Positions 39,571-57,888 of a DNA stretch of 64,000 nucleotides are shown piece by piece. Each line of letters starts with the position of its first letter. Positions within the stretch are counted from its first letter, which is position 1. Both the position numbers and the translations under genes were made by a program. Under the pieces are notes generated by a model. The model did no database searches, was not told where the DNA came from, and saw only the letters and a list, made by a program, of their open reading frames with translations. Source of the DNA: an uncultured Poribacteria bacterium (GTDB taxonomy: Bacteria; Poribacteria; WGA-4E; WGA-3G); contig OX639973.1 of the NCBI GenBank assembly GCA_951828385.1, forward strand, positions 3,277,200-3,341,199, written 5' to 3'.

Positions 39571-41790
39571 TTAGTTACTAAACGCATTCGCAACAATCAC
39601 CAAATCAAGGATATTGACGACACCATCACTATTCAGATCGGGGCCTGTTTCACCGAAAGCATTAGCAACAATGACCAAATCCAAGATATTCACAATGCCA
39701 TCGCCATTGAGATCGGCAACGTTGATTTTCAGATACATCTCACCATCGAGATCGGGGATTGTGTGTTCAATGCCGGTGATACCGCTTTCAACACCCGTAG
39801 TTTCCATCGGTAACGTAATCGTCTGTACTTGTCCGCTTCGGTTATAGACTGCCCAACCGTTGGTGAACTCGCGGATGAAGATGCCGTCGCGGTTATCGTA
39901 AAGCTGCCCTTTTGTTTCAGCACCGCCGATAGGACGACCGAGATCGGCATCCCAGAAATCATACCAGATATGTTCGTTATCTTCCTCACCTCTATTGTAA
40001 ACCACATAGGCATCCGAATGCGTGAGGGCGAGTGTCGTAAAGACACGCATCCATTTTTGATTGATTGGGCTGTTTGGATGTTCTGTTCCAATTCCATACC
40101 CTTCTACAACATTGACTTGCGGGTACCGTAAGTTTGCTTCGTTCCATTGCAGTGCATTTTCCAGAATGGAAAGGTCCTCATAATTATAGTATCTGCCAGG
40201 CTCTCTAACAAACTCTACAAGAGATCCGTTTATGAGTTCCGAAAGACTTTCCATTTTTGAGGCACCCGCGTTAACAATAATTATGAAATCGTCTGGCACA
40301 CGAGCACGAATTTCACTGAAAATGTGGATAACAGCTGCCTCAATTTCTTCAGAAGAGGCTTTAAGGCTATCACGATCATCTATTGATACGATACGACCGG
40401 GACCTCCGGCAAAGTTATCAATCATAATACCATCAAAAAGACCACAAGTTGCTATAGCGACCCCTTGTCTTATCAAAATTTCTTGAACTTCAGGGTCAAC
40501 TATATTAAGATAAGATTGGCTGTCGAGATTGACCCGATTTCCCGCCCGGTCTGTCATCCAATACTTGGATTCATCTGGAAATAACGCGCCGCCGGGTTTC
40601 CATGCGAAAAATTCCCACCAATATAAGGAGACGAAATTGGGGTTCCGCGCATGATAATACGCGTGACGCTCCTGTGGGACGTTCTCCTTCAATATTAAAT
40701 CTGCTCCCAGAGTGCTCTTTTGAAAATGTAAGTCTCCGTAGTGGATAAGTCCAGCAAGAAGGAGATCCGGAAACGGCACCGATTCGGGATCTGCATAACG
40801 ATTCAATAACGGTATCCCTTCAAACCAAATTGGACTTACGGCTTGAAAAACAGAAGGGAATGTCCGGGTTGAGATTCGTTCCTCAACAGAAATAATAGAG
40901 AATTCGACAGACTCACACAGGATATCGTATCTGAATTCTATTAAATTTAAACCGAGGAACGGTGTAATATCTTCTACCAAAATTCCTTCAATATTCAGAT
41001 ACCTTAGGACAGGTAAATTCAGTAATGGACTCAGGTCTCGGATAGGGTTGCCTTGAAGCCTGACTTGCACAAGATTTGTCAGATTTTCCAATGTGGATAT
41101 ATCTACGATCTTATTATCGTTAAGACTGAGCTCTACTAATTCAGTGAGGTTTCTCAGGGGCGTTATATCGCTAATCTGATTGATGCCTAAATGCAATGTT
41201 TTCAAGTTAGTTAGTTGTTCAAGGGGTGAAATATCAGAGACACGATTTGCTGTCAAACTGAGTTGTTCAAGTTCAACCAAATCTGATAGCGGAAGTAGAT
41301 TGCTAACTTGATTTTCGCCAAAATGTAAGTGCAATGTTTTTAAGTTGGTTAGTTGTTCGAGCGGCGATATGTCGGAGATACGATTTTCACTCAGGTAGAG
41401 ATCTTTCAAGTTTGTCAGGTTCGCAAGTGGCGAAATATCTGATATTTGATTCTTATGAAGAGATAAACTCGTCAAATTCCCCAAACTTGCCAAAGGTTGT
41501 AAATCTTCGATGTGGTTATCATCCGCGTAAAACTGTTCTAAAGAGACTGCATGCTCTAAGCCGGTTAGATCCTTGACTTGGTTACCCTCAGGAACACCCA
41601 AATACGTTAGCAACCTCAGATGTTCTTTGGTAAGTGGTGTGTGATCGGGGAGTCCAATCTCTGCTCGGAGTGTCTTCCTGATTGCCATCCGCAAATTCGG
41701 ATCGGGGATCCAAACTTCTGCGAAAAGCGGACTGTTTATGATTGTAACAGTGAAGAAAGCAAAAGCCAAAAGACAATTTCTTATTTTCAT
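39571..41790 (-). CDS. Secreted LRR - glycosidase-like - dockerin protein
   Basis: 739 residues from ATG 41790 (MKIRNCLLAFAFFTV) with a signal peptide. The LRR cap VWIPDPNLRMAIRKTLRAE is followed by nine or so 22-residue internalin-type LRRs (to about 310). A TIM-barrel-like domain follows, with LFDGIMIDNFAGGPGR and DFIIIVNAGASKM, and a beta-rich end with KGQLYDNRDGIFIREFTNGWAVYNRSG. Two dockerin-like repeats (DLNGDGIVNILDLVIVANAF) close the protein. Calcium-binding dockerin pairs normally dock to cohesins, none of which is seen here. It lies 43 bases from the next gene's signal start, in the same orientation as its paralogues. Confidence 0.87.
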   Translation of the reverse strand: MKIRNCLLAFAFFTVTIINSPLFAEVWIPDPNLRMAIRKTLRAEIGLPDHTPLTKEHLRLLTYLGVPEGNQVKDLTGLEHAVSLEQFYADDNHIEDLQPLASLGNLTSLSLHKNQISDISPLANLTNLKDLYLSENRISDISPLEQLTNLKTLHLHFGENQVSNLLPLSDLVELEQLSLTANRVSDISPLEQLTNLKTLHLGINQISDITPLRNLTELVELSLNDNKIVDISTLENLTNLVQVRLQGNPIRDLSPLLNLPVLRYLNIEGILVEDITPFLGLNLIEFRYDILCESVEFSIISVEERISTRTFPSVFQAVSPIWFEGIPLLNRYADPESVPFPDLLLAGLIHYGDLHFQKSTLGADLILKENVPQERHAYYHARNPNFVSLYWWEFFAWKPGGALFPDESKYWMTDRAGNRVNLDSQSYLNIVDPEVQEILIRQGVAIATCGLFDGIMIDNFAGGPGRIVSIDDRDSLKASSEEIEAAVIHIFSEIRARVPDDFIIIVNAGASKMESLSELINGSLVEFVREPGRYYNYEDLSILENALQWNEANLRYPQVNVVEGYGIGTEHPNSPINQKWMRVFTTLALTHSDAYVVYNRGEEDNEHIWYDFWDADLGRPIGGAETKGQLYDNRDGIFIREFTNGWAVYNRSGQVQTITLPMETTGVESGITGIEHTIPDLDGEMYLKINVADLNGDGIVNILDLVIVANAFGETGPDLNSDGVVNILDLVIVANAFSN

Positions 41791-41832
41791 ACGGATTTCC
41801 TTCATTTTTCTTGTTTGAAGTGCCATTTTCTG

Positions 41833-43347
41833 TTAGTTACTAAACGCATTCGCAACAATCACCAAATCAAGGATATTCACAATCCCATCGCCGTTGAGAT
41901 CAGAGGTTGTCTTCCCGAGAGCATTAGCGACAATGACTAAATCCAAAACATTGACGACACCATCGCCATTGATGTCGGCGGTTATTCCTGTCTTTAGATA
42001 CATCTCACCGTCTAAATCGGCAATGACATGCCGAAAACTTGTGGCACCGCTCGCAACGCCAGTGGTTTGTGCAATAAAATTGATTTGCTGTTCTGTGCCA
42101 CTGCGGTTATATACTGCCCAACCATTAGTGAACTCACGGATAAAAATGCCGTCAATGTCGTTGTAGGTTTGTGCTTTTGTTTCATTGCCGCCAACAGGGC
42201 GACCGAGGTCGGCATCCCAGAAGTCATACCAGATGTGGTCGTGGTGAGCCTCCCCAATGTAAAATCCACCTCTATTGTAAAGGACATAGCCATCGGAGTG
42301 TGTGAGACTGAGAGTGGTAAAGACGCGCATCCATTTTTGGTTTTCTGGACTATCCGGCGGTTGCATTTCAAGTCCGAAACCTTCGAGACAATTAATCTGT
42401 GGATACCGTAAGTTTTCCTCGTTCCATAGCAATAGTTCTTCTATTAGGACAAGGTCATCGTAATTGTAGTGTCTATGGGGTTGTCTGACAACCTCCATAA
42501 AACTGCCGTTAATATATTTTGTAAAACTTTCTAATTCCCCAGCTCCGATCCCACCGTTAACGAGTATTAGAAAATCGTCTGGCACCCGTTCACGCACCTC
42601 GCTAAAAAGATACACAAGTGCTTCTATAATCTCGGCACCCATTTTCTCGGAGACCCTATTAGGGTCTATACGCCCATAACGGTCATTGGTAAATAAAGTA
42701 AACGAGTCAATCATCATACCATCAAAAAGCCCACAGTTCGCATAATCTACTGTTTGGTTAATAATAATATCTTGAACTTCACGATTGAAAATATTAAGAT
42801 AATATACACCAGGATCTGGATATTCAATCAAACCCCCGTCAATATCCGATCTAAGCCAGAAATCAGGATTGTCTGGATATTGATGTAGTTCACCTACATG
42901 AAAACTGACCCATAACAAAAATATATAATTCGGATTCAGCGCAAGTCTACGTTGATGCGTTGCTTTTGCAATTTCCATATCCTCTACACCTATCTGTCTT
43001 GATAAGCCAGTGAACGGTTGATCCTCGGTAACATGGTGTCTGATAAATGCACGTTCATAGGGCATAAAGTCGCTAAAATGTAGATCATGAACGATAATAT
43101 ATTCATCTTTTGTATATGATTCAAACCATTCCTCAACGTTCATTTCAAAGGTAGGAGCGGGCAAACCATCAACCAAAAGTGGATTCGCTGCTTGAAAAGT
43201 AGATGGGAATGTCCGTGTCAGGATCCGTTCTTCAACGGGTGGCGCAGGAAATTCAACAGTCTGGTCACATATTTGCGCATGATCGTCAGCGTAAAGTAGA
43301 CAGGTGATAACTAAGAGAACAAGGATATAGAAATTAAGTTTTCTCAT
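41833..43347 (-). CDS. Secreted glycosidase-like - dockerin protein without LRR
   Basis: 504 residues, a shorter paralogue. The signal peptide MRKLNFYILVLLVITCLLYAD is of the same type as the protein at 43825. The LRR part is absent: the mature protein goes straight to the barrel-like domain (RILTRTFPSTFQAANP, then LFDGMMIDSFTLF and DFLILVNGGIGAG). Two dockerin-like repeats end the protein (ADINGDGVVNVLDLVIVANAL and DLNGDGIVNILDLVIVANAF). Its ATG overlaps the stop of the PhyH remnant by four bases; AGGAGA precedes it. Confidence 0.87.
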   Translation of the reverse strand: MRKLNFYILVLLVITCLLYADDHAQICDQTVEFPAPPVEERILTRTFPSTFQAANPLLVDGLPAPTFEMNVEEWFESYTKDEYIIVHDLHFSDFMPYERAFIRHHVTEDQPFTGLSRQIGVEDMEIAKATHQRRLALNPNYIFLLWVSFHVGELHQYPDNPDFWLRSDIDGGLIEYPDPGVYYLNIFNREVQDIIINQTVDYANCGLFDGMMIDSFTLFTNDRYGRIDPNRVSEKMGAEIIEALVYLFSEVRERVPDDFLILVNGGIGAGELESFTKYINGSFMEVVRQPHRHYNYDDLVLIEELLLWNEENLRYPQINCLEGFGLEMQPPDSPENQKWMRVFTTLSLTHSDGYVLYNRGGFYIGEAHHDHIWYDFWDADLGRPVGGNETKAQTYNDIDGIFIREFTNGWAVYNRSGTEQQINFIAQTTGVASGATSFRHVIADLDGEMYLKTGITADINGDGVVNVLDLVIVANALGKTTSDLNGDGIVNILDLVIVANAFSN

Positions 43348-43640
43348 GGAAGTCTCCTATTTTTGCGGTTTGTTTCATTTTCTTTCCTTACCCAATCATG
43401 AAATAATATGATCCGTATCTTGTCGGAGGTATTCGGTTGTTCCTGATGTGCGAGTTTCGGATGCCAGAACAGGACATCTCCCACATTTCCATAAAAGAAA
43501 ACAGGTTCTGCTAATCTTTGTTGCTGCGTTTCATCCAAGTCGCGAGTCTCTTTTGGGAACCCAAGTCTATGGCTCCCCGGATAAATCGAAAAACAGCCGC
43601 CATCGGGTTGGACATCATCTAAAAGGTGGTGTGTGATCGG
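43344..43640 (-). pseudogene. C-terminal remnant of a PhyH-family dioxygenase
   Basis: About 95 codons with the PhyH end: DDVQPDGGCFSIYPGSHRLGFP, then GDVLFWHPKLAHQEQPN, which has the distal iron histidine. The N-terminal half with HxD is missing. The 5' edge fuses at about 43622 to a truncated LRR gene, so the fragment is a recombination product. Its stop overlaps the next gene's ATG. Confidence 0.8.
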
Positions 43641-43782
43641 GGAGTTCAATCTCTGCTCGGAGTGTCTTCCTGATTGCCATCCGTAAATTCGGATCGGGGA
43701 GCCAGTCTTCTGCGAAAAGGGGACTGTTTATAATCGTAACACTGAGCAAAACAAAAGCCAAAAGACAATTTCTTATTTTCAT
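43618..43782 (-). pseudogene. 5' remnant of an LRR-dockerin gene
   Basis: ATG 43782 opens the same signal peptide as at 39528 and 41790 (MKIRNCLLAFVLLSVTIINS), followed by the cap WLPDPNLRMAIRKTLRAEIELPDHTP. Identity with the paralogues ends at that point; the frame stops five codons later where the PhyH remnant begins. The LRR, barrel and dockerin parts are gone. Confidence 0.82.
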
Positions 43783-43824
43783 ACGGATTTCCTTCATTTC
43801 TCTTTTTTGAAGTATCATTTTCTG

Positions 43825-45825
43825 TTAGTTACTAAACGCATTCGCAACAATCACCAAATCAAGGATATTCACAATCCCATCGCCGTTAAGATCCGGTGTT
43901 GTTTTGCCGAAAGCATTAGCAACAATGACCAAATCCAAGATATTGACAATACCATCACTGTTGAGATCAGCGACCTCTCCAATGCGCTTCAAGTAAATTT
44001 CGCCATCTAAATCTGGTAGGGGGTGGGCGTATCCTTTGATGCCACTTGAAACGGCTGTTGTGCTCTCCGAGAACTCGATCTGCTGTTCCTCACCAGAACG
44101 GTTATAGACCGCCCAACCGTTGGTGAACTCACGAATGAATACACCATTGCGATTATCGTAAAGCTGCCCTTTTGTTTCAGCACCGCCGACAGGATGACCA
44201 AGGTCGGCATCCCAGAAATCATACCAGATATGTTCGTGATCAGGTCCGCCGTGAAATCGCTTACCAGTATTGTAAAGCACGTAACCATCAGAGTGTGTTA
44301 ATCCCATTGTCGTGAACAACCGCATCCAACGTCGGTTGTCGGGACTGTCAGCCGGTTCTGTGCCGATGCCCTCACCTTCCAAACAATTGATCTGCGGAGA
44401 GCGTAGATTTAATTCATTCCAGAGGAGTATATCCTCAATTTCAATGAGTTCGCGATAAGTATAACCTTCTGGATGATCTCTACCAAGTTCCATAAAACTC
44501 CCGTCAACGTATTCGGCATAGGCTGTCGGTCTCGATCTACCAGCATTAATAAGTATCAGAAAATCTTTCCGAACTCGGTTGCGAGCCTCACGCAATATGC
44601 GGGTTGTTGCAGCGATGATTTCTTCATTGGTGTGAGGAAAGACATCTCGTCCAACAAAACCGGTAGCATTCCAAGCAAACCCGTCAATCATAATACCATC
44701 ATAAAGTCCACACTCAGCAATACTCACAATCCGTTCGATTATTATATCTTGTAGCCCTGGGTTCATAAAGTTTACCATTGGCCCGTTGAGAATCTCGCTG
44801 TAGACTATTTGATCGTTGTCATCTTTAAGCCAAAAATCGGAGTTCGGTGGATACCTTGATAACTCGCCACTACCATTAATAATAATGTGTCGAAGGGTAA
44901 CTATATTCGGATTTAGGGCAAGAAGCCTATCACGTTCATCTTGAGCGGCTTCTAAATTACCGCCAACCCGAGTCGCCAAGCCGCGTGTGCTCTTACTCGG
45001 AGTTGTTCGCCAAGCAAGTTCAAAAGTCAGACTGAAAGCGAGATCATGATAATCTATACCGCCATGTTTAGGGAGCCCCGCAATTATGAGGCTATCCCAT
45101 GCTTTAAAAACAGATGGAAACGAGCGTGTTAGGATACGCTCTTCAACTGGTAAAGACGGTATATTACAAAGCCTATTATACTCAAATACGGTCAGATTCA
45201 AATGCTGCAATGGACTGAAATCCGAGACAGGATTATCCACAATATCTAACACTTCCAACTGGCTAAGATCTTTTAAAGGACTGACATCTGTGATCAAATT
45301 ACTACCAAGGATTAACTTTTTTAGATTTTTCAATCCAGCAAGCGGAGCTACATCCGAGATTTGACAACCTGCCAAATCTAAGTCTTCTAAATGGATAAGG
45401 TTTGAGACTGGGCTGAGGTCGCTTATCGGATTGAATGCACAGTTCAAATATACAAGGGAGGTCAAAGGCTCTAATGGCGATAAATCGGAGACTTGATTGC
45501 CAAGCAGAACCAATCCACGTAATTTTGTTAAGTTTCGCAGCGGCGTTATATCTTCTATGAGATTAATTCCGAGATTGAGACCGACTTCAAGATTTTGTGC
45601 GAATTCCAATCCTTGTATTGAACGAATCCCTCTGTGTTGTGCCTCAAGATGTATCAGTGATTTGATATTCTCTTTTGTCAAGGGCACTTCATCGGGTAAC
45701 TCAAGCTTTTCTCGAATCGCTATGCGCAGGTTCGCATCCGGCATCCAGTGTGGTTCTTCTGCGCCAGCGTAAAGTAGACATCCAATCGCTAAGAGGATAA
45801 GGATACAGCAGTTAAGTTTTTTCAT
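43825..45825 (-). CDS. Secreted LRR - glycosidase-like - dockerin protein
   Basis: 666 residues. The signal peptide is MKKLNCCILILLAIGCLLYAG and the cap is WMPDANLRIAIREKLELPDE. About six LRRs follow to residue 220 (for example LKNLKKLILGSNLITDVSPL), then the barrel-like domain with LYDGIMIDGFAWNATG and DFLILINAGRSRP near 410-450. A KGQLYDNRNGVFIREFTNGWAVYNRSG segment and two dockerin-like repeats end the protein. GGAGA precedes the ATG. The gene directly follows the sigma-LRR gene and shares its LRR cap type, so the two probably belong to one transcription unit. Confidence 0.87.
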   Translation of the reverse strand: MKKLNCCILILLAIGCLLYAGAEEPHWMPDANLRIAIREKLELPDEVPLTKENIKSLIHLEAQHRGIRSIQGLEFAQNLEVGLNLGINLIEDITPLRNLTKLRGLVLLGNQVSDLSPLEPLTSLVYLNCAFNPISDLSPVSNLIHLEDLDLAGCQISDVAPLAGLKNLKKLILGSNLITDVSPLKDLSQLEVLDIVDNPVSDFSPLQHLNLTVFEYNRLCNIPSLPVEERILTRSFPSVFKAWDSLIIAGLPKHGGIDYHDLAFSLTFELAWRTTPSKSTRGLATRVGGNLEAAQDERDRLLALNPNIVTLRHIIINGSGELSRYPPNSDFWLKDDNDQIVYSEILNGPMVNFMNPGLQDIIIERIVSIAECGLYDGIMIDGFAWNATGFVGRDVFPHTNEEIIAATTRILREARNRVRKDFLILINAGRSRPTAYAEYVDGSFMELGRDHPEGYTYRELIEIEDILLWNELNLRSPQINCLEGEGIGTEPADSPDNRRWMRLFTTMGLTHSDGYVLYNTGKRFHGGPDHEHIWYDFWDADLGHPVGGAETKGQLYDNRNGVFIREFTNGWAVYNRSGEEQQIEFSESTTAVSSGIKGYAHPLPDLDGEIYLKRIGEVADLNSDGIVNILDLVIVANAFGKTTPDLNGDGIVNILDLVIVANAFSN

Positions 45826-45894: not shown

Positions 45895-48795
45895 CTACCT
45901 CGACTCTATAAGGTTCAATCCAATGAGGGGTGTAAAATCTGTTATCGGATTTCCTTGAACCTGCAATGTCCGCAACGCAACTAACCGCGCAAGGGGGCTG
46001 ATGTCTTCAATGGCATTACCGCTAATATCCAAAACATGAAGCCTCTTCAACTTAGCAAGCGGACGGATATCCGAAACCTTACTATTTGCCAGCCAAAGTC
46101 GCTCCAAGTTGATGAGGTTCGTCAGAGCGTATAGGTCAAGATTTGGCGTGTTTGGTGTTATCCCCGAAATATTCAAGACCTTAAGGTTCATCAAAGTCGT
46201 CAGTGCGTATAGGTCTGTTATCGAATTCCGACTCAGGTTAAGTTCTCTGAGGTTCGTCGCAAACTCTAAACCACGAATGTTATTGATACCTTTGTTGGAG
46301 ATATTTAGCTCCTGCAGTTGTAGCATGTTCTCTTTTGTAAGCGGCACATTCGGTAGGAGTCCAACCTCACCGCGTACTGCAATGCGCAACGCAGCATCCG
46401 GCATCCACACTTCGGCAGCATCAGTTTGCTGATTCATCTGTTGGGTAACATCGTATTTGAAGTCCGTGAGATTCAGTTCGGCAATCGGTGTGAAATCTGT
46501 TATCGGATTTCCCTGAACCCACAAAGTATGCAGCGCAGTTAACTCCGAAAGCGGAAGGATGTCTTCAATGTCGTTATATCTAATATCCAAGATGTGCAGG
46601 TTCGTCAACCCCGACAACGGACGGATATCCGAAATACCGCTGTATTCCAGACAGATGTATTCTAAGCTGGTGAGACGCGCTAATTGACGCAGGTCTATTA
46701 GCGAACAGTGACTCGCGTCGAGTTCTCTCAGATTCAATCTGTAGAGTGGGCGCAAATCTGTGATTGGGTTCCCTTCAATGGATAATGTCCGCAGTTTTGT
46801 CAATCCCGAAAGCGGCGTTATATCCAAAATGCCATTCCTGTGCAGAATGAGCCTCTCTAAGTTCGTTAAATTCGTCAGCGGATGGAGCTCAAGGTTTGCC
46901 ATCTGTAGAGAGACATCTCCGATATGTAAAACCTTAAGTTTCGTTAAGTTTGCAAGCGGACGTAAATCTGTGATTGGATTCCGACTCAGGTGGAGCTCTC
47001 TGAGATTCGTCGCAAACTCTAAGCCTGTGATATCAAGGATGCCTTTGTCGTGCACATCAAGATAGTCCAACCTTAACATCTTTTCTTTCGTTAATGGGAC
47101 CTCCGGTAGGAGTCCGAGTTCCCCTCGAATTACGGCGCGCAATACTGGATCTGGCATCCATGCTTCAGAAGGCTGCGTTTGTGATGCGTGATTTGCTACT
47201 CCATCGTATTTCAGGTCTGTAAGATGCAATTCAGAGAGTGGGCGCAGGTCTTTTATCGGATTCCCCTTGATCCATAATATTTGCAGATTCGTCAGTCCTG
47301 TAAGCGGACTAAAGTCTCTAATATGGTTCTCTGTAAGGATCAGATGCTTTAGGTTTCTCAAGTCTGCGAGCGGAGCCACATTTTGCAAGTCGTTGTCAAA
47401 AAGGTCTAATTTTTTCAAGTTTACCAGATTCGCGAGCGGACTGAGATCGTCTACATAATTGTCAGCCAAATTCAGGTAAGTCAGGGCAGTCAAGGCAGCG
47501 AGTGGCGATATATCGTTTACTCGGTTATTCCAGAGGCTAAGCCCAGTTAAATGCGTCAGGTTCGCGAGGGGCCTCAGGTCTGCGACTTGGTTACCGCCTA
47601 CATTGAGATAGGTCAGATCGGTGAGCGTAGCGAGTGGTCTTAAGTTGATGATAGCATTCCCCTCATCGCCTAAACGTAAGTCCACTAAATTTTGGGCAAA
47701 TTCCAAGCCCTTTAAATCGGTGATACCTTTTCCACCGGCATGTAGACGCTGCAGCTCGAGCAGCATCTCCTGCGTTAAGGGCACGGCTGCCGGAAGCGCG
47801 AGTTCCTCCCGAACAGCAGCGCGTAACGCTGGATCGGGCATCCATGAGACGGTATCCTCTGGATGCACCTGTGCACCTGGTGCTGAAACTGTTTCAGAAT
47901 CTTGTAATCCGGGGCTATTGGTCTTATGGGTCATGATAGCCCGTCCGGCTTGAGAGTGAAGCGCGGGTTTTGCGTCGGTGTCAAGAACAATAGGTGCTTC
48001 AATGATTTCGATGGTCGGTTCCGATGCTGCCTCAAAACTATAGGGTCTCTGAAATCGTATGAGGTATTTGTTGCTAAGTCCGAGCATCAGCATCACCAAA
48101 ATTGCAGCCACGCCGACGGCGAGCCACGGAATAGGGGATTTTGTAGGGGGCGACGCGATCGGTTTCATATCGGCAATTTTCTGGGTGATGGTTTCTGCAA
48201 GGTCGGTAGAGAGTTGGAAACTTCCGAGCATTTCTTGTATCAAAAGCGTTTCGTCCTGTTGTAAACGGCGTCGTGCCCGCTGCAGGCGGCTGGTAATCGT
48301 GTGCACAGAGACACCGAGAAATCTGCTAATCTCTCGTGTCGTCATTTCACCGAGATAGTAGAGCGTCATGACAGTGCGTTCGCTCTCAGGAAGTTTATCA
48401 ATCAATTTCTTGACAAGCTTCTGGCGATTTTCAACAGATTCAGCCTCGCGTTGCTCTGATATATAACGCGCGTATGCAGATTTATCAACTGCGTCCATAG
48501 CTATCGTCTCCAGCAATTGTAGCCTTGCTTTATTGTTGCGCCGCCAGTTGCTACAGTGCCGACTTGTCATAACATAAAGCCAGCCAGCGAATTGGCGCGG
48601 ATTCTTAAGCGTTGAAAGTTTGTTATAGACTTGGAGGAAAATGTCTTGCGTAACCTCTTCGGCATAGTGGAAATCACCGATCTTCCGCCATGCCAAAGCA
48701 TGTACACTTTTCTGATATTTTCGGACTAAAGCAGTGAAAGCTGCATCATCGCCCGACAAAATTCTGTGGATGAGTTGAACATCTTCTTCTATCAT
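45895..48795 (-). CDS. ECF sigma factor fused to a TM helix and extracytoplasmic LRR domain
   Basis: 966 residues. Residues about 10-90 are sigma region 2 (FTALVRKYQKSVHALAWRKIGDFHYAEEVTQDIFLQVYNKL). Residues about 130-185 are region 4 (LPESERTVMTLYYLGEMTTREISRFLGVSVHTITSRLQRARRRL). A single hydrophobic helix (WLAVGVAAILVMLMLGL, about 224-240) follows, then a linker of about 80 residues. Three LRR modules come next, each led by a cap (WMPDPALRAAVREEL near 320; WMPDPVLRAVIRGEL near 550; WMPDAALRIAVRGEV near 805). The layout implies a membrane-tethered sigma factor with an outside LRR sensor. No separate anti-sigma gene is adjacent. GGAGC precedes the ATG. It heads the collinear LRR-dockerin cluster. 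Confidence 0.9.
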   Translation of the reverse strand: MIEEDVQLIHRILSGDDAAFTALVRKYQKSVHALAWRKIGDFHYAEEVTQDIFLQVYNKLSTLKNPRQFAGWLYVMTSRHCSNWRRNNKARLQLLETIAMDAVDKSAYARYISEQREAESVENRQKLVKKLIDKLPESERTVMTLYYLGEMTTREISRFLGVSVHTITSRLQRARRRLQQDETLLIQEMLGSFQLSTDLAETITQKIADMKPIASPPTKSPIPWLAVGVAAILVMLMLGLSNKYLIRFQRPYSFEAASEPTIEIIEAPIVLDTDAKPALHSQAGRAIMTHKTNSPGLQDSETVSAPGAQVHPEDTVSWMPDPALRAAVREELALPAAVPLTQEMLLELQRLHAGGKGITDLKGLEFAQNLVDLRLGDEGNAIINLRPLATLTDLTYLNVGGNQVADLRPLANLTHLTGLSLWNNRVNDISPLAALTALTYLNLADNYVDDLSPLANLVNLKKLDLFDNDLQNVAPLADLRNLKHLILTENHIRDFSPLTGLTNLQILWIKGNPIKDLRPLSELHLTDLKYDGVANHASQTQPSEAWMPDPVLRAVIRGELGLLPEVPLTKEKMLRLDYLDVHDKGILDITGLEFATNLRELHLSRNPITDLRPLANLTKLKVLHIGDVSLQMANLELHPLTNLTNLERLILHRNGILDITPLSGLTKLRTLSIEGNPITDLRPLYRLNLRELDASHCSLIDLRQLARLTSLEYICLEYSGISDIRPLSGLTNLHILDIRYNDIEDILPLSELTALHTLWVQGNPITDFTPIAELNLTDFKYDVTQQMNQQTDAAEVWMPDAALRIAVRGEVGLLPNVPLTKENMLQLQELNISNKGINNIRGLEFATNLRELNLSRNSITDLYALTTLMNLKVLNISGITPNTPNLDLYALTNLINLERLWLANSKVSDIRPLAKLKRLHVLDISGNAIEDISPLARLVALRTLQVQGNPITDFTPLIGLNLIESR

Positions 48796-48893: not shown

Positions 48894-48926
48894 TTAAAGA
48901 CACATTTTATTGCCGAAAACGTGCAT
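48894..48926 (-). promoter_or_regulatory. Bipartite motif upstream of sigma-LRR gene
   Basis: Minus strand: ATGCACGTTTTC (48926-48915), 10 bases, TGTGTCTTTAA (48904-48894), about 100 bases before the start codon. Both blocks recur exactly upstream of the WD40 gene at 57571. It is a candidate ECF promoter, perhaps recognised by the sigma factor it precedes. Confidence 0.6.
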
Positions 48927-48993
48927 AATAAGAAAAAAATGAATAGGGCTTAGGCAGACAGGATATTTGCCTCCGATTGGATGTGTCTGTTTT

Positions 48994-50520
48994 TCAGTGG
49001 CGTGGCAGTTTTTTCAAAATGGATTCCGCGGTGTGAACGTAATGTTGTTTTTTCCCATGTTCGGCGACCCACTGTAGATAGCCTCGCGCCATTGAGACGT
49101 TACTCCGATAGTAGTATACCAGCCCGATGTAAAAACTGTATTCCTCGAATCTTCCATAGTGATTCAGCACATGATTATAATTGTTCAATAACGCAATAAG
49201 GAACTCGTCATTCTCGGCATAGAACCTTTCGTTATTCAAGACGTAAGTGGTCCCATCCCACTCGTAGAGGCTTACCCATTCAGGACGTGACCCCATATCA
49301 ATATTGATAGCTATACGGTCAGGAATCTTGATCTCGTAGATGCCATCGTTATCCAAGTCAATATATTCCATAGGATCCTTCCTTCTGGTAGAACTATAGG
49401 CACTGCAGACTGCCTTGAATTCACCGTTCTGGAAAGAAATCACAGCTATACCGTAGGCATGTTCCACCCATAAGTCTAAAATGCCATCTCCCGTCAAATC
49501 CACGATTTCAAAGGAAACATGTGGAAATTCCCATGGACCACTTCCGTAAAATTTTCGGAAGACGAAGGGTGCGCTCTGAACTTTAATGTTTTTCGCTGGA
49601 ACATCCCACGGATAAGCCCGCGAAGCAAAAAGCTTGAAAAGGTCTTTTTTCTTGGGCAACTCGTCTGCTGTATTCTCAGCAATCAGAAGAAACGCTTGGT
49701 TCCATTGCCCCCATTCGACCGATTCGCCTCTTGGCTGAGTAACCATCAGAACAATAGTCTCTTTTTTGGGGGTATCATCAATATTTGCAATGGCTTTCAT
49801 CCGGGTAGTGTAAGAGAGTGTTTCCGGTGGTGGCGTCGCCAAAAACCGATGATATTTTTCACCTTCAGGATCACTCGGGAAATCATAGGGATCGTAAAAA
49901 TGACACTCGACATCGGGAGTTTCTGCAAGTTTTTGTCCGGTCACTGGATAGTTGTTGAAGACTTCCTTGAACTCGCCGTTTTCAAAAGAGATGAGGGCGA
50001 CACCATAAACGGATTCTACCCAGACATCTAAGGTGCCATCGCCCGTTAAATCCACGAGTCTAAAGGCGGTATCGGTCGGTTGTTTCAAGACAAAGGGTGG
50101 CTCATAAAGTTCAATAACTTTTGCGGGGACCTCCAACTGATGCGTCCGCGAATCATAAAGTTTGAATAAATCCTTTTTCTTCGGACCCGAGTATGATTGG
50201 GTGTCCGTAATGAGGAGAAACGCTTGGTGCCCATTGCCGGACGGTGCCCGCGGTTTTGTATCAACAACGATTAGCACAATGGTCTCTTTTCCGGGTGTAT
50301 CATCAATATTTGCGCTGGCTATCATCTGGGTATGGTAATCGAATCCTTCCGGTGGCGGGTTAGGGAAAAAACGGTCATACCTCTCCTCATGAAAACGGGC
50401 TCTGGAGTGATACGTGACTGCAGAAGTCGTCGTTTTGGCGGTCTCCGCATTTATGACAAGAGAACTAAGTATCAGCAAAATAGCAAATCCAAGAAGTGTG
50501 GTTTGAATGTGTTGCTTCAT
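48994..50520 (-). CDS. Secreted VCBS/FG-GAP-like protein, copy 5 (two-unit)
   Basis: 508 residues with a signal peptide (MKQHIQTTLLGFAILLILSSLVINA). It contains two copies of the roughly 180-residue unit seen in the neighbours: each starts with a (Y/H)xRF-type segment, then DTPxKETIVLM, LTGDGTLDVWVE and ISFQNGEFK. The calcium-binding-like motifs LTGDGILDLWVEHAYG and YIDLDNDGIYEIKIPDRI resemble FG-GAP/VCBS beta-propeller repeats. A helical C-terminal segment (YSFYIGLVYYYRSN) ends the protein. Last gene of the five-gene tandem array. Function unknown; probably cell-surface binding. Confidence 0.82.
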   Translation of the reverse strand: MKQHIQTTLLGFAILLILSSLVINAETAKTTTSAVTYHSRARFHEERYDRFFPNPPPEGFDYHTQMIASANIDDTPGKETIVLIVVDTKPRAPSGNGHQAFLLITDTQSYSGPKKKDLFKLYDSRTHQLEVPAKVIELYEPPFVLKQPTDTAFRLVDLTGDGTLDVWVESVYGVALISFENGEFKEVFNNYPVTGQKLAETPDVECHFYDPYDFPSDPEGEKYHRFLATPPPETLSYTTRMKAIANIDDTPKKETIVLMVTQPRGESVEWGQWNQAFLLIAENTADELPKKKDLFKLFASRAYPWDVPAKNIKVQSAPFVFRKFYGSGPWEFPHVSFEIVDLTGDGILDLWVEHAYGIAVISFQNGEFKAVCSAYSSTRRKDPMEYIDLDNDGIYEIKIPDRIAINIDMGSRPEWVSLYEWDGTTYVLNNERFYAENDEFLIALLNNYNHVLNHYGRFEEYSFYIGLVYYYRSNVSMARGYLQWVAEHGKKQHYVHTAESILKKLPRH

Positions 50521-50571
50521 GCTTTTTGTCTCCGAATAAAAGCGTTGATGATTCTGTGTATTGGTTGGTTT

Positions 50572-51591
50572 TCATCTTCGCAAGGGTGGTGCTTTTTTCA
50601 AGAGAACTGATGCCGCTTGAATATAATCGTTATTCTTCGCATGTTCCAGAATCCACTCTAAATCCGAGGGTGACTTGCTGCCACGATAGTAGTATAGCAA
50701 CCCTAAATAGAACCTATATGTTTCGCAGTAGCTGATAAATGCCCCTCGTTGAAGTAGCTGATAATTATACTCGCTCAATAACTCAATGAGGAAATCGTTA
50801 TTCTCGGCATAGAACCTTTCGTTACTCAAGACGTAGGCGTTCCCATCCCATTCATATAGACTCATCCATGGTAGGTGTGGTAATCCCGGAAGATCCTCAA
50901 TATATATGCTGTATGGAATCTTTATTTCATAGCTGCCGTCATTATCGAGATCAATGTACTCAGGACCAGGCAGCATCCCGGGAACCGTATAGGAGCTGAA
51001 GATTTCCTTGAATTCGCCATCCTGAAATGAAATCACAGCCACGGCATATCCAAATTCAACCCAGACGTCTAAAGTGCCATCGCCTGTTAAATCGACGAGT
51101 CTAAAGGAAACATCGGGAGGCTTAAGAGCATCTTTTGGCGGTTGCGTGAAGATGAACTGTGGGCTACGAAGTTCAACAGTTTTCGCTGGCACCTCCAACG
51201 CATAAGTCCCTGAATCGAAAAGTTTGAAAAGGTCTATTTTCTTTGAAAAACCGGCTGCTACGGTGTCAGTAATCAGGAGATACGCTTGTTCCCAGTTGCC
51301 GGGGACTGATGCCTCGTTTGCACCAACAATCATTAGAACAGCAGTCTCTTTTTCAGGTGTATCATCGATATTTGCAATGGCTTTGAGCTCGGTAGAGTAA
51401 TAAAGTTCTTTCGGTCGAGGAGCGGGTAAAAATCGTTGATATATTCGCCCCATAGGATGATACCCATAATGAAACCGTCGATACCTGACATCAGAAGTTT
51501 CGGATATTGGCGGGTCAGCACTCACCGCCGCACTCGACAGCAAGAAGCAGATAGCCAGTCCAAAAAGTATGGTTTGAAAATGTTTTTTCAT
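50572..51591 (-). CDS. Secreted VCBS/FG-GAP-like protein, copy 4 (one-unit)
   Basis: 339 residues with signal peptide MKKHFQTILFGLAICFLLSSAAVSA. It has a single unit: ELKAIANIDDTPEKETAVLM, DLTGDGTLDVWVEFGY, ISFQDGEFKEIF, YIDLDNDGSYEIKIPYSI and LPWMSLYEWDGNAYVLSNERFYAEN. The C-terminus again has a short helical stretch (YRFYLGLLYYYRGS). It differs from its neighbours in having only one repeat unit and a PPKDALK insertion. GGGAGAC lies before the ATG. Spacing of 52 bases to the next gene suggests co-transcription. Confidence 0.82.
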   Translation of the reverse strand: MKKHFQTILFGLAICFLLSSAAVSADPPISETSDVRYRRFHYGYHPMGRIYQRFLPAPRPKELYYSTELKAIANIDDTPEKETAVLMIVGANEASVPGNWEQAYLLITDTVAAGFSKKIDLFKLFDSGTYALEVPAKTVELRSPQFIFTQPPKDALKPPDVSFRLVDLTGDGTLDVWVEFGYAVAVISFQDGEFKEIFSSYTVPGMLPGPEYIDLDNDGSYEIKIPYSIYIEDLPGLPHLPWMSLYEWDGNAYVLSNERFYAENNDFLIELLSEYNYQLLQRGAFISYCETYRFYLGLLYYYRGSKSPSDLEWILEHAKNNDYIQAASVLLKKAPPLRR

Positions 51592-51643
51592 GTTTTTGTC
51601 TCCCGTTGGGTCTGTTAGATGTCAGACGGGTTGGGTCTGTTTT

Positions 51644-53185
51644 TTAGTGGTGTGTCAATTTTTTCAAGATCGATTCCGCGGCTTCAATGTAATCATCGTT
51701 CTTCACATTTCTGACGACCCATTGTAGATATTTTTGCGCCATTACTGCGTTGCCGCGATAGTAGAAGACTAATCCTATGTAGAAACTGTATTCATCCTGT
51801 ATTGCATAATAATGCCAAAAATTATACTTTTCCAACAACCGAACTAAGAACTCGTCATTGTCAGCATAGAATCTTCGGTTATTCAAGACGTAGGTGGTGC
51901 CGTCCCACTCGTAGAAACTCATCCATTTCAGAGCCGCTGCGCCAGGGGCACCCTTGATATGTATGCTATCAGGAATCTTGATTTCGTAGATGCCATCGTT
52001 ATCTATATCAAGGTATTCTATCGGGCCCTCCCTTCTGGTAGAACTATAGGCACTGCAGACTGCCACAAACTCACCATCTTGGAAAGAAATCACAGCCACA
52101 CCGTAGGCATGTTCAACCCATACGTCTAAAATGCCATCACCCGTCAGATCAACAAGGTCAAAAGAGACCCCGCCAAAACTCCAAGGAGAACCTCTGTGCG
52201 TCCATTCTCGGAAGACGAACGGTGTACGCTGCGCTTCAATAGAAACTCTCGCTGGTACATCCAAATCATGAGTCCCTGTATCAAAAAGTTTAAAAAGGTC
52301 TTTTTTCTTCAGGATGTCTACCTCGTTTTCAGCAATGAGGAGAAACGCTTGAACCCATTCGCCGTGGGGCCCGTTCCTTCCGGTCTCAGCAATCATTAGA
52401 ACAATCCTCTCTTTTTCAGGCGTGTCATCCACATTTGCTGTGGCTATCATCCGAGTATCGTAATAGAGTCCTTCCGGAGCCGGAGCAGACAAAAAACGGT
52501 GATACAATCGTCCCTGAGGCTCGATTGGGGCATCGTAATAATGATATTCGATGTCAGAAGTTTCTGCGAGTTTCTTTTTAGTCACGGTGTAGTTGCTGAA
52601 GACCTCTTTGAATTCACCGTTCTGAAAAGAAATGAGCGCGACACCATAAGCAGATTCCACCCATACATCTAAAGTGCCATCACCCGTCAAATCAATGAGT
52701 CTAAAGGAGACACCGTGCGGTTTCCAAGGCGCATCATTCAGCCGTTCCTTGAAGATAAACGGTGGACTCTGAAGTTCAATGGTTTTCGCTGCTGGAACCT
52801 CCAAATCATAAGAATCCGAATCAAAAAGTTTGAATAAATCTTTTTTCTTCGGGCTGTCTATGTCGGGGTCTGTTATGAGGAGAAATGCTTGAAGCCACTC
52901 ACCGTACGGTGTGTGCCGTTTTGTATCGACAACGATTAGAACAACTTTCTCTTTTTCAGGCGTGTCATTAATATCTGCATCGGCTACCATCCGGGTATGG
53001 TAGCGGAGTTCTTCAGGAGCAACAGAAGGTAAAAAACGGTGATACCTTTCAAGGTCTCGGTAATAGTAATGGTAATACTTGACCTCGGAAGTCGTCGTTT
53101 TGGCAGTCTCCGCATTCACAGCAAAACAACTGAGTATCAGCAAAATAACACATCCAAGAAGTGTGGTTTGAAGAGGTTGTTTCAT
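51644..53185 (-). CDS. Secreted VCBS/FG-GAP-like protein, copy 3 (two-unit)
   Basis: 513 residues from ATG 53185 (MKQPLQTTLLGCVILLILSC), preferred to ATG 53200 because GGGAGAC then lies 6 bases upstream. Two tandem units with DTPEKEKVVLIVVD, LTGDGTLDVWVESAYGVALIS, then DTPEKERIVLMIAE, LTGDGILDVWVEHAYGVAVIS and YLDIDNDGIYEIKIPDSIH. Very similar to the protein at 48994, so the two-unit forms are close duplicates separated by a one-unit form. Confidence 0.82.
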   Translation of the reverse strand: MKQPLQTTLLGCVILLILSCFAVNAETAKTTTSEVKYYHYYYRDLERYHRFLPSVAPEELRYHTRMVADADINDTPEKEKVVLIVVDTKRHTPYGEWLQAFLLITDPDIDSPKKKDLFKLFDSDSYDLEVPAAKTIELQSPPFIFKERLNDAPWKPHGVSFRLIDLTGDGTLDVWVESAYGVALISFQNGEFKEVFSNYTVTKKKLAETSDIEYHYYDAPIEPQGRLYHRFLSAPAPEGLYYDTRMIATANVDDTPEKERIVLMIAETGRNGPHGEWVQAFLLIAENEVDILKKKDLFKLFDTGTHDLDVPARVSIEAQRTPFVFREWTHRGSPWSFGGVSFDLVDLTGDGILDVWVEHAYGVAVISFQDGEFVAVCSAYSSTRREGPIEYLDIDNDGIYEIKIPDSIHIKGAPGAAALKWMSFYEWDGTTYVLNNRRFYADNDEFLVRLLEKYNFWHYYAIQDEYSFYIGLVFYYRGNAVMAQKYLQWVVRNVKNDDYIEAAESILKKLTHH

Positions 53186-53200
53186 GCTTTTGTCTCCCAT

Positions 53201-54207
53201 TTATTCGGATGGCAATTTTTTAAAGATGGATTCCGCGGCTTGAATGTAATGGTCCTGCTTCCCATGTTCAATGATCCATTTTAAATGCCCCGGTGTCTCG
53301 CTGCCCCGATAGTAGGATACCAACCCTAAGTAGAAACGGTATGTCTCACAGTTATAAATAACGCGCCCATGCCGAAGCATCTGATAATTATACTCGCTCA
53401 ATAACTGAATGAGGAACTCGTCATTCTCGGCATAGAATCTCTCGTTATTCAAGATGTACGCGTTTCCATTCCACTCGTAAAGGCTCATCCATGGCAGATG
53501 TGGCGCGCTAGGGACACGGTCAATATTTATACTGTATGGAACCTTGATTTCGTAGCTGCCATCGTTATCTAAGTCAACGTACTCGGCTTCAGATAGAAAT
53601 CCAGGAATGGTGTAGTTGCCGAAGACTTCCTTGAATGCCCCGTTCTGAAACGAAATCACAGCAACACCGTAGGTGGATTCAAACCATACGTCTAAAACTC
53701 CATCACCCGTTAAATCAACGAGTTCAAAGGTGGCATGAGATTGAAGCACATCTTTCGGGGGTTGCGTGAAGACGAATGGCGGGTTCTGAAGTTCAATAGT
53801 TTCCGCTGTGGGGACCTCCAATGCATAAGTCCCCGTATCAAAAAGTTTGAAAAGTGCCTTTTCTTGGGGTTCCGCTGCCTCGGTATTAGCAATGAGAAGA
53901 AACGCTTGGACCCATTCGTCAACATATCTGTACGGTTCTCTCGGCACATCAACAAGTATTAAGACAACGGTCTCTTTTTCAGGTGTATCATCAATATTTG
54001 CGGTAGCCGCCATTCGTGTATTGTAATAAAGTCCTTTTGGGGCGGCGGTAGGCAAAAAACGGTGATACTTTTTCTCCTGATATGAGTAATATCGTTGATA
54101 CTTGACTTCAGGCGTTGTAGTTTCAGGGGACTCCGCATTCACTACAAGAGAACTGAGTATCAGGAAATAGAAAGTCCAAGAAGTGTGGTTTGAAAATGTT
54201 TTTTCAT
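53201..54207 (-). pseudogene. Secreted VCBS/FG-GAP-like protein, copy 2, frameshift in signal peptide
   Basis: The mature part (313 residues from VNAESPETTTPEVKYQ) is complete, with LTGDGVLDVWFESTYG and YVDLDNDGSYEIKVPYSI. The signal peptide starts at ATG 54207 (MKKHFQTTLLGLSI) and then meets a stop. The expected LILSSLVVNAE is in a neighbouring frame about 45 bases in, so one base appears to be missing near 54163-54170. The shift may be a true inactivating mutation or a sequencing error. A GTG start within the mature part would give a protein without export signal. Confidence 0.78.
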
Positions 54208-54257
54208 GTTTTTTGTCTCCGATTCGGTCTGTTAAATGTCAGGCCTTGTTCCACATT

Positions 54258-55289
54258 TCACTGCGGTGGCAATTTTTTCAAAATGGATTCCGCAGCATGA
54301 ATGTAATCTGGCTTCTTAGCATATTTGACCACCGATTGTAGATACCTTCGTGCCATTGCCGTATTGCCGCGATAGTAGAAGACCAGCCCGATGTAGAAAC
54401 TGTATGGCTCGTACCTTCCATATCGAATCAGCGCATAATTATACTGGCGCAATAACTGAATGAGGAACGCGTCATTCTCGGCATAAATCCTTTCGTTATT
54501 CAAGACGTAAGCGGTGCCATCCCATTCGTAGAGGCTCATCCAATGCACATATCGCAACCCAGGAATGTCAATCATAAATATGCTGCGAGGAATTTTGATT
54601 TCGTAGATGCCATCGTTATCCAAGTCAACGTACTCAGGAGAGTGCTCCCTGGAATACGCGTACCCGCTACAGATTTCCTTGAACTCACCATTTTGAAAGG
54701 AAATCACAGCCACACCGCAGTAGGCATGGTCAATCCATATATCCAAAATGCCGTCCCCTGTCAAATCCACGAGTTTGAAGGAAACCCGCTTGGAACGCCA
54801 AGATCCACCTCTCCACAATCCCTCGAAGACGAAGGGTGGGTTACGAACTTCAATGGTTTTCCCCGGAACATCGAAATCATAAACGCCCGCATCAAAAAGT
54901 TTAAAAAGGTCTTTTTTCTTCGGGAGCCCGACTCCTTCAACTTCAGCCTCAGCAATGAGGAGAAACGCTTGGCACCATTCGCGCCACTCTTCTCCAGCCT
55001 CAGCCACCATCAGAACAATAGTTTCTTTTTCAGGCGTGTCATCAATATTTGCTGTCGCTTTCTTCCGAGTGTCGTAAGATGCACCTTGCGGTGCGGGGAA
55101 CTGCAAAAAACGGTGATACTTTCGACCTTCAGGGTCAATTGGAACATCATACCATTTATACTCGACATCAGAATCCGTAGGGGTTTGGGTCTCCGCGTTC
55201 ACTGGAAAAGCACTGAGGATAAGCGAGATAGTAAGTCCTAAAAGGATGCGCTGGATGTGTTTTGACACGATTTTTGTTTTCTTATACAT
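54258..55289 (-). CDS. Secreted VCBS/FG-GAP-like protein, copy 1 (one-unit)
   Basis: 343 residues, the first gene of the array. MYKKTKIVSKHIQRILLGLTISLILSAFPVNA is a signal peptide with a longer charged start than in the other copies. One unit follows: DTPEKETIVLMVAE, LTGDGILDIWIDHAYCGVAVIS, YVDLDNDGIYEIKIPRSI and VHWMSLYEWDGTAYVLNNERIYAEN. AGAGGAG lies 8 bases before the ATG. The stop of the WD40 gene is 95 bases upstream on the same strand, so both may share the promoter near 57650. Confidence 0.82.
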   Translation of the reverse strand: MYKKTKIVSKHIQRILLGLTISLILSAFPVNAETQTPTDSDVEYKWYDVPIDPEGRKYHRFLQFPAPQGASYDTRKKATANIDDTPEKETIVLMVAEAGEEWREWCQAFLLIAEAEVEGVGLPKKKDLFKLFDAGVYDFDVPGKTIEVRNPPFVFEGLWRGGSWRSKRVSFKLVDLTGDGILDIWIDHAYCGVAVISFQNGEFKEICSGYAYSREHSPEYVDLDNDGIYEIKIPRSIFMIDIPGLRYVHWMSLYEWDGTAYVLNNERIYAENDAFLIQLLRQYNYALIRYGRYEPYSFYIGLVFYYRGNTAMARRYLQSVVKYAKKPDYIHAAESILKKLPPQ

Positions 55290-55384
55290 TGTGATAACTC
55301 CTCTGGCTAACTGTTTAATGATGGAGGGTTCATCTTAGTTCGATTCCAACCGTTCGGGGACCCCTGTCGCATATGTCTGACGTG

Positions 55385-57571
55385 TTACTCCCACAGAATC
55401 ACTGTACCGTCCCGACTTCTACTTGCGATTGTCTTTCCATCTGGGCTGAACGATACACTATAAATGCTGCCCCTATGTCCAGCAAGTTTTGTTTTAAGGG
55501 TGCCGGTTGCAACGTCCCACAAAAGCACCGCATAGTCTTGCCAAGCATCCCCGCTTGCGATGGTCTTCCCATCTGGACTGAATGCTACGCTATAGACACT
55601 TCCCGCATGACCAACGAGTTTCGTTTTGAGACTGCCTGTTGCGACACCCCACAAAAGCACTGCATGGTCCCCCGCGTCCCGACTCGCACTTGCGATCGTC
55701 TTACTATCCGGACTGAATGCTACGCTCCTGACCTCACCCTTATGCTCGGCGAGCTCAGCTTTGAGGGCACCTGTCTCTACGTCCCATAAACGGACCTCAC
55801 TTTCATAACTCAAATTGGCAAGTGTTGTGCCATCTGGACTGAACGCTATACGCCTAATCCTACTACCGGTATCGAGTATCCGTTTGACCTCACCCGTCGC
55901 AACGTCCCATAAAAAAACTTTATAGTCATAGTCGTCGTCATAGTCTTTCGGATTCCAAGTCACACCGGCAAGTGTCTTTCCATCTGGACTGAACGTTACA
56001 CGCCTGACCTCACCTGTAGGTCTTGTGAGTTTTCTTTTCATCGAACCCGTTGTGACGTCCCAGAAAATAACCTGACTGTTGATATAATTCGCACCGTCAG
56101 GTGTCACACCGGCAAGCGTCTTTCCATCCGAACTGAACGATAGACTCCTGACACTGCCTCTATATCCGGTGAGTTTTCTTTTTATTGAACCAGTTGCGAT
56201 GTCCCACAAATGAACCTTCCTATCCGAACTTGCACTTGCAAGTGTCGTGCTATCTGGACTGAACGCTACACTATTGACAGCATCCATATCAAGTTTCATT
56301 TTCACCGAATCCGTTGCAACGTCCCACAAACGAAGCGCACCGCCACCACTTCGACTCGCGATTGTCTTTCCGTCTGGACTGAATACTACACTATTGGCGC
56401 TGCCTGTATGCCCTGTGAGTTTCGCTTTCACTGAACCCGTCTCGACATCCGAGAAAAAAACAGCGTGGTCTCCTTCGCCCTGATTTGCACTTACAAGTGT
56501 CTTTCCATCCGGACTGAACAATACATGACTGACCATAGCCGTATGCCCTATAAGTTTCGCTTTCACCGAATTCGTCTCAACATCCCAGAAAAATACCGTA
56601 GGATCCCTCTCACTGCGACTCGCGCTTACAAGCGTCTTTCCATCTGGACTGAACGCTACACTGTTGACTACAGTTGTATGCCCTGTGAGTTTCGCTTTCA
56701 CCGACTCTGTCGCAATATCCCAGAAAAGAATTGTCTTGTTTGAACAACTCGCGATTGTCTTTCCATCCGGACTGAACGCTACACTATTGACCCTATGCGT
56801 ATGACCAGTGAGTGTCAATTTTACCACACCTGTCTCAACATCCCAGAAAAGAATTGTCCTGTTTGAGCAACTCGCGATTGTCTTTCCATCCGGACTGAAT
56901 GCTAAATTATCGACAGAGAACTCATCTCCTGCAAGTGTCGTTTTGAAGTTGCCCGTCGCAACGTCCCACAAGCACACCGTATCGTCATAACTCCGACCAC
57001 CACTGGCGAGTGTAGACCCATCCGGACTGAACAAGACGCTACCGATCCCGCTTGTATGTCCTGTGAGTGTTGCTTTAAGTGTGCCTGTCGCAACGTCCCA
57101 CAGACGAACCGTGCTATCATAACTCCCACTTGCAAGTATCGTGCCATCTGGACTGAACGATATACTCTTGATCCCACTCGTATGTCCGGTGAAGGTCGCT
57201 TTCACACCACCCGTCCCAACATCCCACAAACGAACCGTACAGTCCATATCTCCACCGCCACTGGCAAGTGTCTCGCTATCTGGACTGAACGATAAACTGT
57301 AGATCCAGTCCATACGTCCAGGGAGAAATGCAAGTTCTTGGGATGTTTTGGTATCATACAACCATATACCGATGTTACTTCCTACGGCAAGCAACGAACC
57401 GTCTGGAGAATATATGACCTTTTCTACGCTCCCTTTACCGAGACGCGCTTTGGCACCCTCGGGTAAACTGAGTTGCGTATATGCCACATCCTGCGCGAAC
57501 CCAAGGCGGATACTGGTGCTTGAAACCATTAGGAACATTAAGGTGAACAAAAACGTTGCTTTTACTTTCAT
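55385..57571 (-). CDS. Exported WD40-repeat protein
   Basis: 728 residues from ATG 57571 (MKVKATFLFTLMFLMVSSTS), which AGAGGA precedes; the frame is open to 57628. A signal peptide is followed by about fifteen WD40 blades, each with the FSPDGKTIASxS and LWDV pattern and LTGH or LAGH connectors. Adjacent blades are close to identical in places (for example the two CSNRTILFWD/CSNKTILFWD blades around 250-300), which indicates recent blade duplication. It probably heads the VCBS array. Related to the WD40 protein at 32575 but with more regular blades. Confidence 0.88.
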   Translation of the reverse strand: MKVKATFLFTLMFLMVSSTSIRLGFAQDVAYTQLSLPEGAKARLGKGSVEKVIYSPDGSLLAVGSNIGIWLYDTKTSQELAFLPGRMDWIYSLSFSPDSETLASGGGDMDCTVRLWDVGTGGVKATFTGHTSGIKSISFSPDGTILASGSYDSTVRLWDVATGTLKATLTGHTSGIGSVLFSPDGSTLASGGRSYDDTVCLWDVATGNFKTTLAGDEFSVDNLAFSPDGKTIASCSNRTILFWDVETGVVKLTLTGHTHRVNSVAFSPDGKTIASCSNKTILFWDIATESVKAKLTGHTTVVNSVAFSPDGKTLVSASRSERDPTVFFWDVETNSVKAKLIGHTAMVSHVLFSPDGKTLVSANQGEGDHAVFFSDVETGSVKAKLTGHTGSANSVVFSPDGKTIASRSGGGALRLWDVATDSVKMKLDMDAVNSVAFSPDSTTLASASSDRKVHLWDIATGSIKRKLTGYRGSVRSLSFSSDGKTLAGVTPDGANYINSQVIFWDVTTGSMKRKLTRPTGEVRRVTFSPDGKTLAGVTWNPKDYDDDYDYKVFLWDVATGEVKRILDTGSRIRRIAFSPDGTTLANLSYESEVRLWDVETGALKAELAEHKGEVRSVAFSPDSKTIASASRDAGDHAVLLWGVATGSLKTKLVGHAGSVYSVAFSPDGKTIASGDAWQDYAVLLWDVATGTLKTKLAGHRGSIYSVSFSPDGKTIASRSRDGTVILWE

Positions 57572-57644
57572 GTGTTGATTCCTCTTTTTCAGACAGAAAG
57601 TTTTGGTTAAATAACCGAAACGGAACATATTTTTCCTCCTGCCA

Positions 57645-57678
57645 TTAAAGACACAATTTTGGGGTGGAAAACGTGCAT
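57645..57678 (-). promoter_or_regulatory. Bipartite motif upstream of WD40/VCBS cluster
   Basis: Minus strand: ATGCACGTTTTC (57678-57667), 11 bases, TGTGTCTTTAA (57655-57645), 74 bases before the WD40 start. It is identical in both blocks to the motif at 48894-48926. The remaining intergenic bases to 57888 show no further gene. Confidence 0.6.
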
Positions 57679-57888
57679 TCTGTAAAAAAAGTGAAATAAA
57701 TTTGGATTTTTTTATGGGTTGTCCGGCGAGTGTCGGGATAGACCTTTACCCATTTAGGACTCATCCCTCCAATTTAATTATAACATCTGTTGAAACCGAT
57801 TGCGAAAAAAGCAAAAGACTGGGCAAATATTTTCTATTTGATTTCTCTGTGAAAATGCGGTAGAATGTCCCTCAAAGGAGACTTCTTG

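Follow-up and report, generated by a model that had tools for sequence, protein, structure and literature searches.

A bipartite motif upstream of two genes of an uncultured Poribacteria bacterium is very probably the -35/-10 promoter of a Poribacteria family of ECF sigma factors, whose members would transcribe their own genes and also neighbouring operons. Promoter architecture, presence across the family and covariation with the contact residues of the sigma factors are each well supported at the sequence level. ECF promoters and ECF autoregulation are already known. The window is the whole stretch of 64,000 nucleotides that was analysed. Its relevant features are as follows.

39571..45825, minus strand: GHL15-dockerin proteins encoded after the sigma gene; the LRRs of two of them are homologous to the sigma extension
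45895..48795, minus strand: ECF sigma factor of 966 aa with regions 2 and 4, a predicted TM helix and a C-terminal LRR array (Pfam, hydropathy, solved homologues)
48894..48939, minus strand: P2, predicted promoter of the sigma-LRR gene, with a T-tract at 48939-48933
48925-48920, minus strand: P2 -35 element TGCACG, with G-35 at 48924
48901-48899, minus strand: P2 -10 core GTC, with a predicted transcription start near 48889
48994..55289, minus strand: five tandem paralogous signal-like FG-GAP-like proteins between the WD40 and sigma genes, in the same order in the relative G003
55385..57571, minus strand: WD40 beta-propeller protein with a signal-like N-terminus, the first gene after P1 (Pfam; start supported by G003)
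57645..57690, minus strand: P1, predicted promoter of the WD40/FG-GAP operon, with a T-tract at 57690-57684
57677-57672, minus strand: P1 -35 element TGCACG, with G-35 at 57676
57652-57650, minus strand: P1 -10 core GTC, with a predicted transcription start near 57640

Both blocks were exact at both window sites on the minus strand. ATGCACGTTTTC is located at 48926-48915 and 57678-57667, and TGTGTCTTTAA at 48904-48894 and 57655-57645. The gap between them is 10 bases at the sigma-LRR site and 11 at the WD40 site, confirming the same orientation and spacing at both genes given in the initial annotation. The distances of 99 and 74 bases to the start codons reported there are right if the WD40 gene starts at ATG 57571. 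The longest WD40 ORF starts at 57628, and the start at 57571 is supported by the G003 orthologue, which starts at the equivalent position. A genome-wide scan for the exact pair with a gap of 8-13 bases found four copies in the 6.66 Mb genome and none for the reversed-pattern control. Nineteen sites were found when up to three mismatches were allowed, again with no control sites. Fourteen of the 19 were aligned. Also conserved were AAAA(T)T directly before the second block and a T-tract about 8 bases before the TGCAC of the first. The bases between the blocks had been described as differing; the blocks are indeed exact, but the spacer is not free, as the AAAA(T)T and the T-tract are kept. The register of P1 and P2 was set from alignment to the contacts in solved ECF-DNA structures. 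The five FG-GAP-like genes, some encoding one and some two repeat units, are probably within the P1 operon. Read-through from P2 into the GHL15-dockerin genes is possible.

The window sigma factor matched Pfam Sigma70_r2, Sigma70_r4_2 and Sigma70_ECF over residues 7-181, and so has the regions 2 and 4 of an ECF (group IV) sigma factor. Its solved homologues include SigW, SigH and SigE. It is up to 94% identical to proteins of named Candidatus Poribacteria relatives. A TM helix was predicted at residues 222-240 (mean hydropathy 2.45), placing it C-terminal to sigma4, a feature of ECF48, ECF52 and ECF53. A protein search identified 94 ECF sigma genes in the genome, 74 of them forming one closely related family at a cut-off of at least 42% identity to the window sigma. 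A helix with hydropathy above 1.6 was present in 54 of these 74.

The motif profile R1 gave 65 sites in the genome. Twenty-five of these had a listed ECF gene at most 400 nt downstream in the same orientation, compared to an expected fraction of 0.28%; the profile was built on 14 sites, only three of which are themselves within 400 nt of a listed ECF gene. Expectation-maximisation was then run with random starts on a non-redundant set of 66 ECF upstream regions. It converged on ATTATGCAaCntTT-N12/13-gCGTCacTAa in 83% of genes, with a log-likelihood of 655 compared to 79 for shuffled sequence. The resulting matrix was scanned at a threshold set to the 99th percentile of dinucleotide shuffles. 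A site was found in 62/74 family upstream regions compared to 2/20 for the other ECFs, with 0/74 on the opposite strand and 0/74 inside genes as controls. In other Poribacteria a site was present at 41 of 77 loci. The initial annotation would have been undermined by a motif scattered without relation to genes, or absent at homologous loci. Enrichment upstream of genes was seen in place of scatter, and the motif was present in family upstream regions and in relatives.

The family consensus is TGCAaC ... CGTC with 23-24 bases from G-35 to GTC. It has the AAC and CGTC cores and the -35/-10 spacing of ECF-type promoters; the window copies deviate from it to CACG and TGTC. Two sub-classes were seen. 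The first is window-like, GTGTCTTTAA, mostly with a longer leader. The second, GCGTCACTAT, mostly lies 20-47 nt before the start codon. Family genes with no site directly upstream include ECF3, 4, 6, 9, 11, 13 and 18, where an intervening gene separates the family gene from a site about 0.7-2.4 kb away, an operon-like arrangement. The other 40 of the 65 R1 sites do not directly precede any listed ECF gene. Most of them lie before genes for ABC-2 type permeases or for proteins whose N-termini look signal-like by eye, and 37 of the 40 are outside same-strand ORFs.

A number of individual sites were also recorded. A class-2-like ECF promoter, ATTAAGCAACTCTT-N13-GCGGCACTAT, is present in the window at 5109-5145 (plus strand), followed about 210 nt further on by an ABC-2 type permease gene at 5357-6859. 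TGCACG and TGCACC sites precede short ORFs at L288 (G000:C1:941027) and L291 (G000:C1:2179357), and these ORFs are similar to portions of the GHL15-dockerin proteins encoded after the window sigma gene. Tandem promoter pairs about 80-100 bp apart were found at L095, L099 and L348, each upstream of a single gene. At L295 (G000:C1:3610028) a strong window-type site is located about 250 nt upstream of a small sigma-like gene of 196 aa that is outside the family search list. A different candidate motif, TTTAAACCTTTT...CCTCTTTA, seemingly belongs to another ECF group (L169, L171 and L172; ECF86, 88 and 89), where it is found a short way ahead of the start codon.

Covariation between sigma factors and promoters was analysed in 60 pairs from the window genome. 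In partial Mantel tests sigma2 was correlated with the -10 given sigma4 (r=0.21, p=0.002) and sigma4 with the -35 given sigma2 (r=0.17, p=0.005). These correlations are modest in size, and the crossed tests on the same 60 pairs were not significant. The residue-base pairs were 168 with -31, 172 with -32, and 169 and 165 with -34. With K or R at residue 168, C was found at -31 in 48/49 pairs, compared to 1/11 for other residues (Fisher 1.6e-9). The pattern was repeated with the same residues in 36 pairs from other Poribacteria species. Forty-seven disjoint sister pairs were also compared, a test which takes away most of the effect of shared descent. Here the best of 177 columns was 168 for -31, 172 for -32 and 165 for -34; no single sigma2 contact residue was picked out for the -10. 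The alignment to solved ECFs is unambiguous within the recognition helix. The counterparts of residue 168 are sigmaE R171 and sigmaW K170, both of which form a hydrogen bond to the template G opposite -31 (PMC6713349). Residue 169 aligns with S172 and T171, which make a contact at -34, and residue 172 with F175 and H174, which make contacts at -32/-33 (PMC6713349). A residue-base code for ECFs has already been described (review PMC8103513). Since the covariation repeats in other species and in the 47 sister pairs, each sigma factor of the family most likely reads its own upstream promoter. There were 52 distinct -35/-10 combinations among the approximately 60 pairs.

The window sigma has T168 and Q172 in the helix TITSRLQ, which goes with TGCACG. 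This helix is common to five sigma factors of the genome (ECF1, 2, 3, 5 and 56). TGCACG therefore fits five sigma factors and the sequence does not fix which of them acts at P1. The sigma-LRR regulon of the initial annotation stands as regards an ECF's own promoter, on the strength of family-wide occurrence, -35/-10 geometry and covariation with DNA-contact residues. It does not stand as a label for the motif, which marks a 74-member family with varied C-terminal sensors, and a private two-promoter regulon is not established, TGCACG being predicted to be readable by about five sigma factors. LRR extensions were found in 4 of 37 members scanned and the proposal that all members are sigma-LRR proteins was rejected.

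The shared helix also bears on an alternative in which both sites are ECF promoters read by one or a few other family members rather than the adjacent sigma, giving a cross-regulated circuit. Many TGCACG sites are far from any of the five sigma factors, as such a circuit would allow. However, across the family the promoter follows the adjacent sigma residue by residue, so that self-reading is needed as a general rule, and ECF1 is the sole ECF within 9 kb of P1. Cross-regulation of this kind is considered unlikely. The covariation weighs further against an operator for a DNA-binding activator or repressor common to these genes, as the covarying residues are those of the sigma4 recognition helix, at the register known from the solved structures. 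Bipartite conserved blocks at a fixed spacing could suit an operator, but the spacing is that of ECF -35/-10 elements and the motif is neither a palindrome nor a direct repeat. An operator is thus highly improbable.

That the motif is a functionless remnant of duplicated upstream regions, or else a dispersed repeat, is scarcely credible. Some upstream regions are partly similar, for example with ATGTTCCG after the motif in L003, L004 and L011, and there are tandem duplicates among some promoters. Against this, the motif persists at 50-60% sigma identity with unalignable flanks and in other species, its orientation is fixed relative to genes, and only 3 of the 40 non-ECF sites are inside ORFs. 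No conserved sequence well beyond the motif was seen in most copies of the 14-site alignment.

The promoter reading was examined in relatives. The motif profile gave 7-72 sites per genome in 13 genomes of the genus, the window genome included. Only 0-1 sites were found in each of eight genomes that belong to other families of the order and have few close sigma homologues. Site number tracks ECF number over these 21 genomes (Spearman 0.93). In G003 the whole cluster is kept with both promoters, P1 having T for G at -31. The P2 blocks are kept amid diverged flanks in G011. In G005 the orthologous sigma gene is itself directly preceded by a near-identical P1 sequence, which has the same flanking gene next to it. 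On the basis of this arrangement P1 may originally have been a sigma gene promoter, since separated from it by the WD40 and FG-GAP genes.

A mechanism can be proposed in which transcription, the sigma acting at P1, membrane topology, the release mechanism and the signal are all inferred. The first block carries the -35 (TGCACG, G at -35), to be read by the region 4 recognition helix, and the second the -10 (GTC at about -12 to -10), to be read by region 2. Each family member most likely transcribes its own gene from its own copy, a positive autoregulation, together with neighbouring operons that have further copies. In the window the sigma-LRR gene would be transcribed from P2 and the adjacent upstream WD40/FG-GAP operon from P1. 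A single TM helix probably tethers the sigma to the inner membrane, and on sensing a signal the external LRR domain would bring about its release, by regulated proteolysis or a change of shape. The released sigma would transcribe from P2 and P1, closing a local positive feedback circuit. Release by proteolysis is suggested by analogy with IutY (PMC8999054).

The C-termini of the family are swappable sensors, mostly behind the predicted TM helix. Pfam matches among the extensions were BNR/sortilin-like propellers, LRR, LRR with GHL15, Kelch, M16, Reg_prop, thioredoxin-like, DnaN-like and TPR domains. In two ECF extensions the match was to the beta clamp of DNA polymerase III (DnaN), which is an odd partner for a sigma factor. 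In 20 kb neighbourhoods, a neighbouring gene was homologous to the sigma's own extension at 9 of 20 loci. Such homology was found in 15/257 own pairs compared to 70/4883 other pairs (Fisher 1.6e-5), the pairs being not fully independent because some neighbourhoods overlap. In the window, the LRR array of the sigma is similar to the LRRs encoded by the GHL15-dockerin genes immediately downstream, with 46% identity over 218 aa between the sigma extension and the first of the two LRR-bearing proteins.

E. coli sigmaE and B. subtilis sigmaW are alike to the family in the sigma2-sigma4 core, the -35/-10 spacing, the register of contact residues, the AAC-type -35 and CGTC -10 of the consensus and, as predicted here, self-regulation. 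They differ in that 74 related paralogues are present in one Poribacteria genome, most with a large C-terminal extension. The Poribacteria -35 also starts with TGCA, and the window variant has G at -31 and T168 in place of K/R. A few groups of membrane-fused ECFs are already known (PMC8999054). IutY, ECF48, ECF52 (SCO4117) and ECF53 have a sigma domain, TM helix and extracytoplasmic domain on one polypeptide, as here, and proteolytic release is plausible in both cases (PMC8999054). Unlike those groups, the present family is from a different phylum, is much more expanded and has LRR, BNR/sortilin-like, Kelch, M16 and GHL15 sensors, among others. No ZAS (zinc-finger anti-sigma) domain was matched by Pfam in the window protein or the listed family extensions, and an ECF52-type fusion was therefore rejected as the class. 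Ten window proteins scanned had no Pfam match to an anti-sigma family, although remote anti-sigma domains are possible.

SigI/RsgI of cellulolytic clostridia are similar in that sigma-promoter pairs exist as many paralogues, cross-talk between them is limited, sensing is extracellular and the products controlled are secreted and bear dockerins (PMC6056542). However, SigI belongs to another sigma family and has its sensor on the separate anti-sigma RsgI, whereas extension and sigma domain are on one polypeptide here. ECF57 and ECF42, with WD40 or TPR extensions, also have repeat-domain C-termini, proposed to act in protein interaction (PMC8999054), whereas most Poribacteria members have a predicted TM helix right after sigma4. 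No description of this family was found in the open literature searched on Poribacteria sigma factors and LRR-fused ECFs, and one elsewhere is possible. What appears to be new is a family spanning the genus in which each sigma has a promoter variant and the sensors are swappable and resemble neighbouring products. A broader picture is put forward tentatively, with doubt slightly outweighing belief. Each genome of the genus would encode about 20-80 one-protein transmembrane sigma factors, each with a sensor recruited from or mimicking a secreted neighbour and its own diverged promoter code, forming dozens of largely separate local self-activating circuits.

The observation of two sites thus becomes a testable map for the possible control of a large set of secreted LRR, WD40, FG-GAP and dockerin proteins by an uncultured sponge symbiont. 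With about 60 natural sigma-promoter pairs and a residue-to-base code that can be read, this one genome offers good data for promoter specificity and insulation among paralogues. The likeness between sensors and neighbouring products suggests a route by which new sensory sigma factors may arise.
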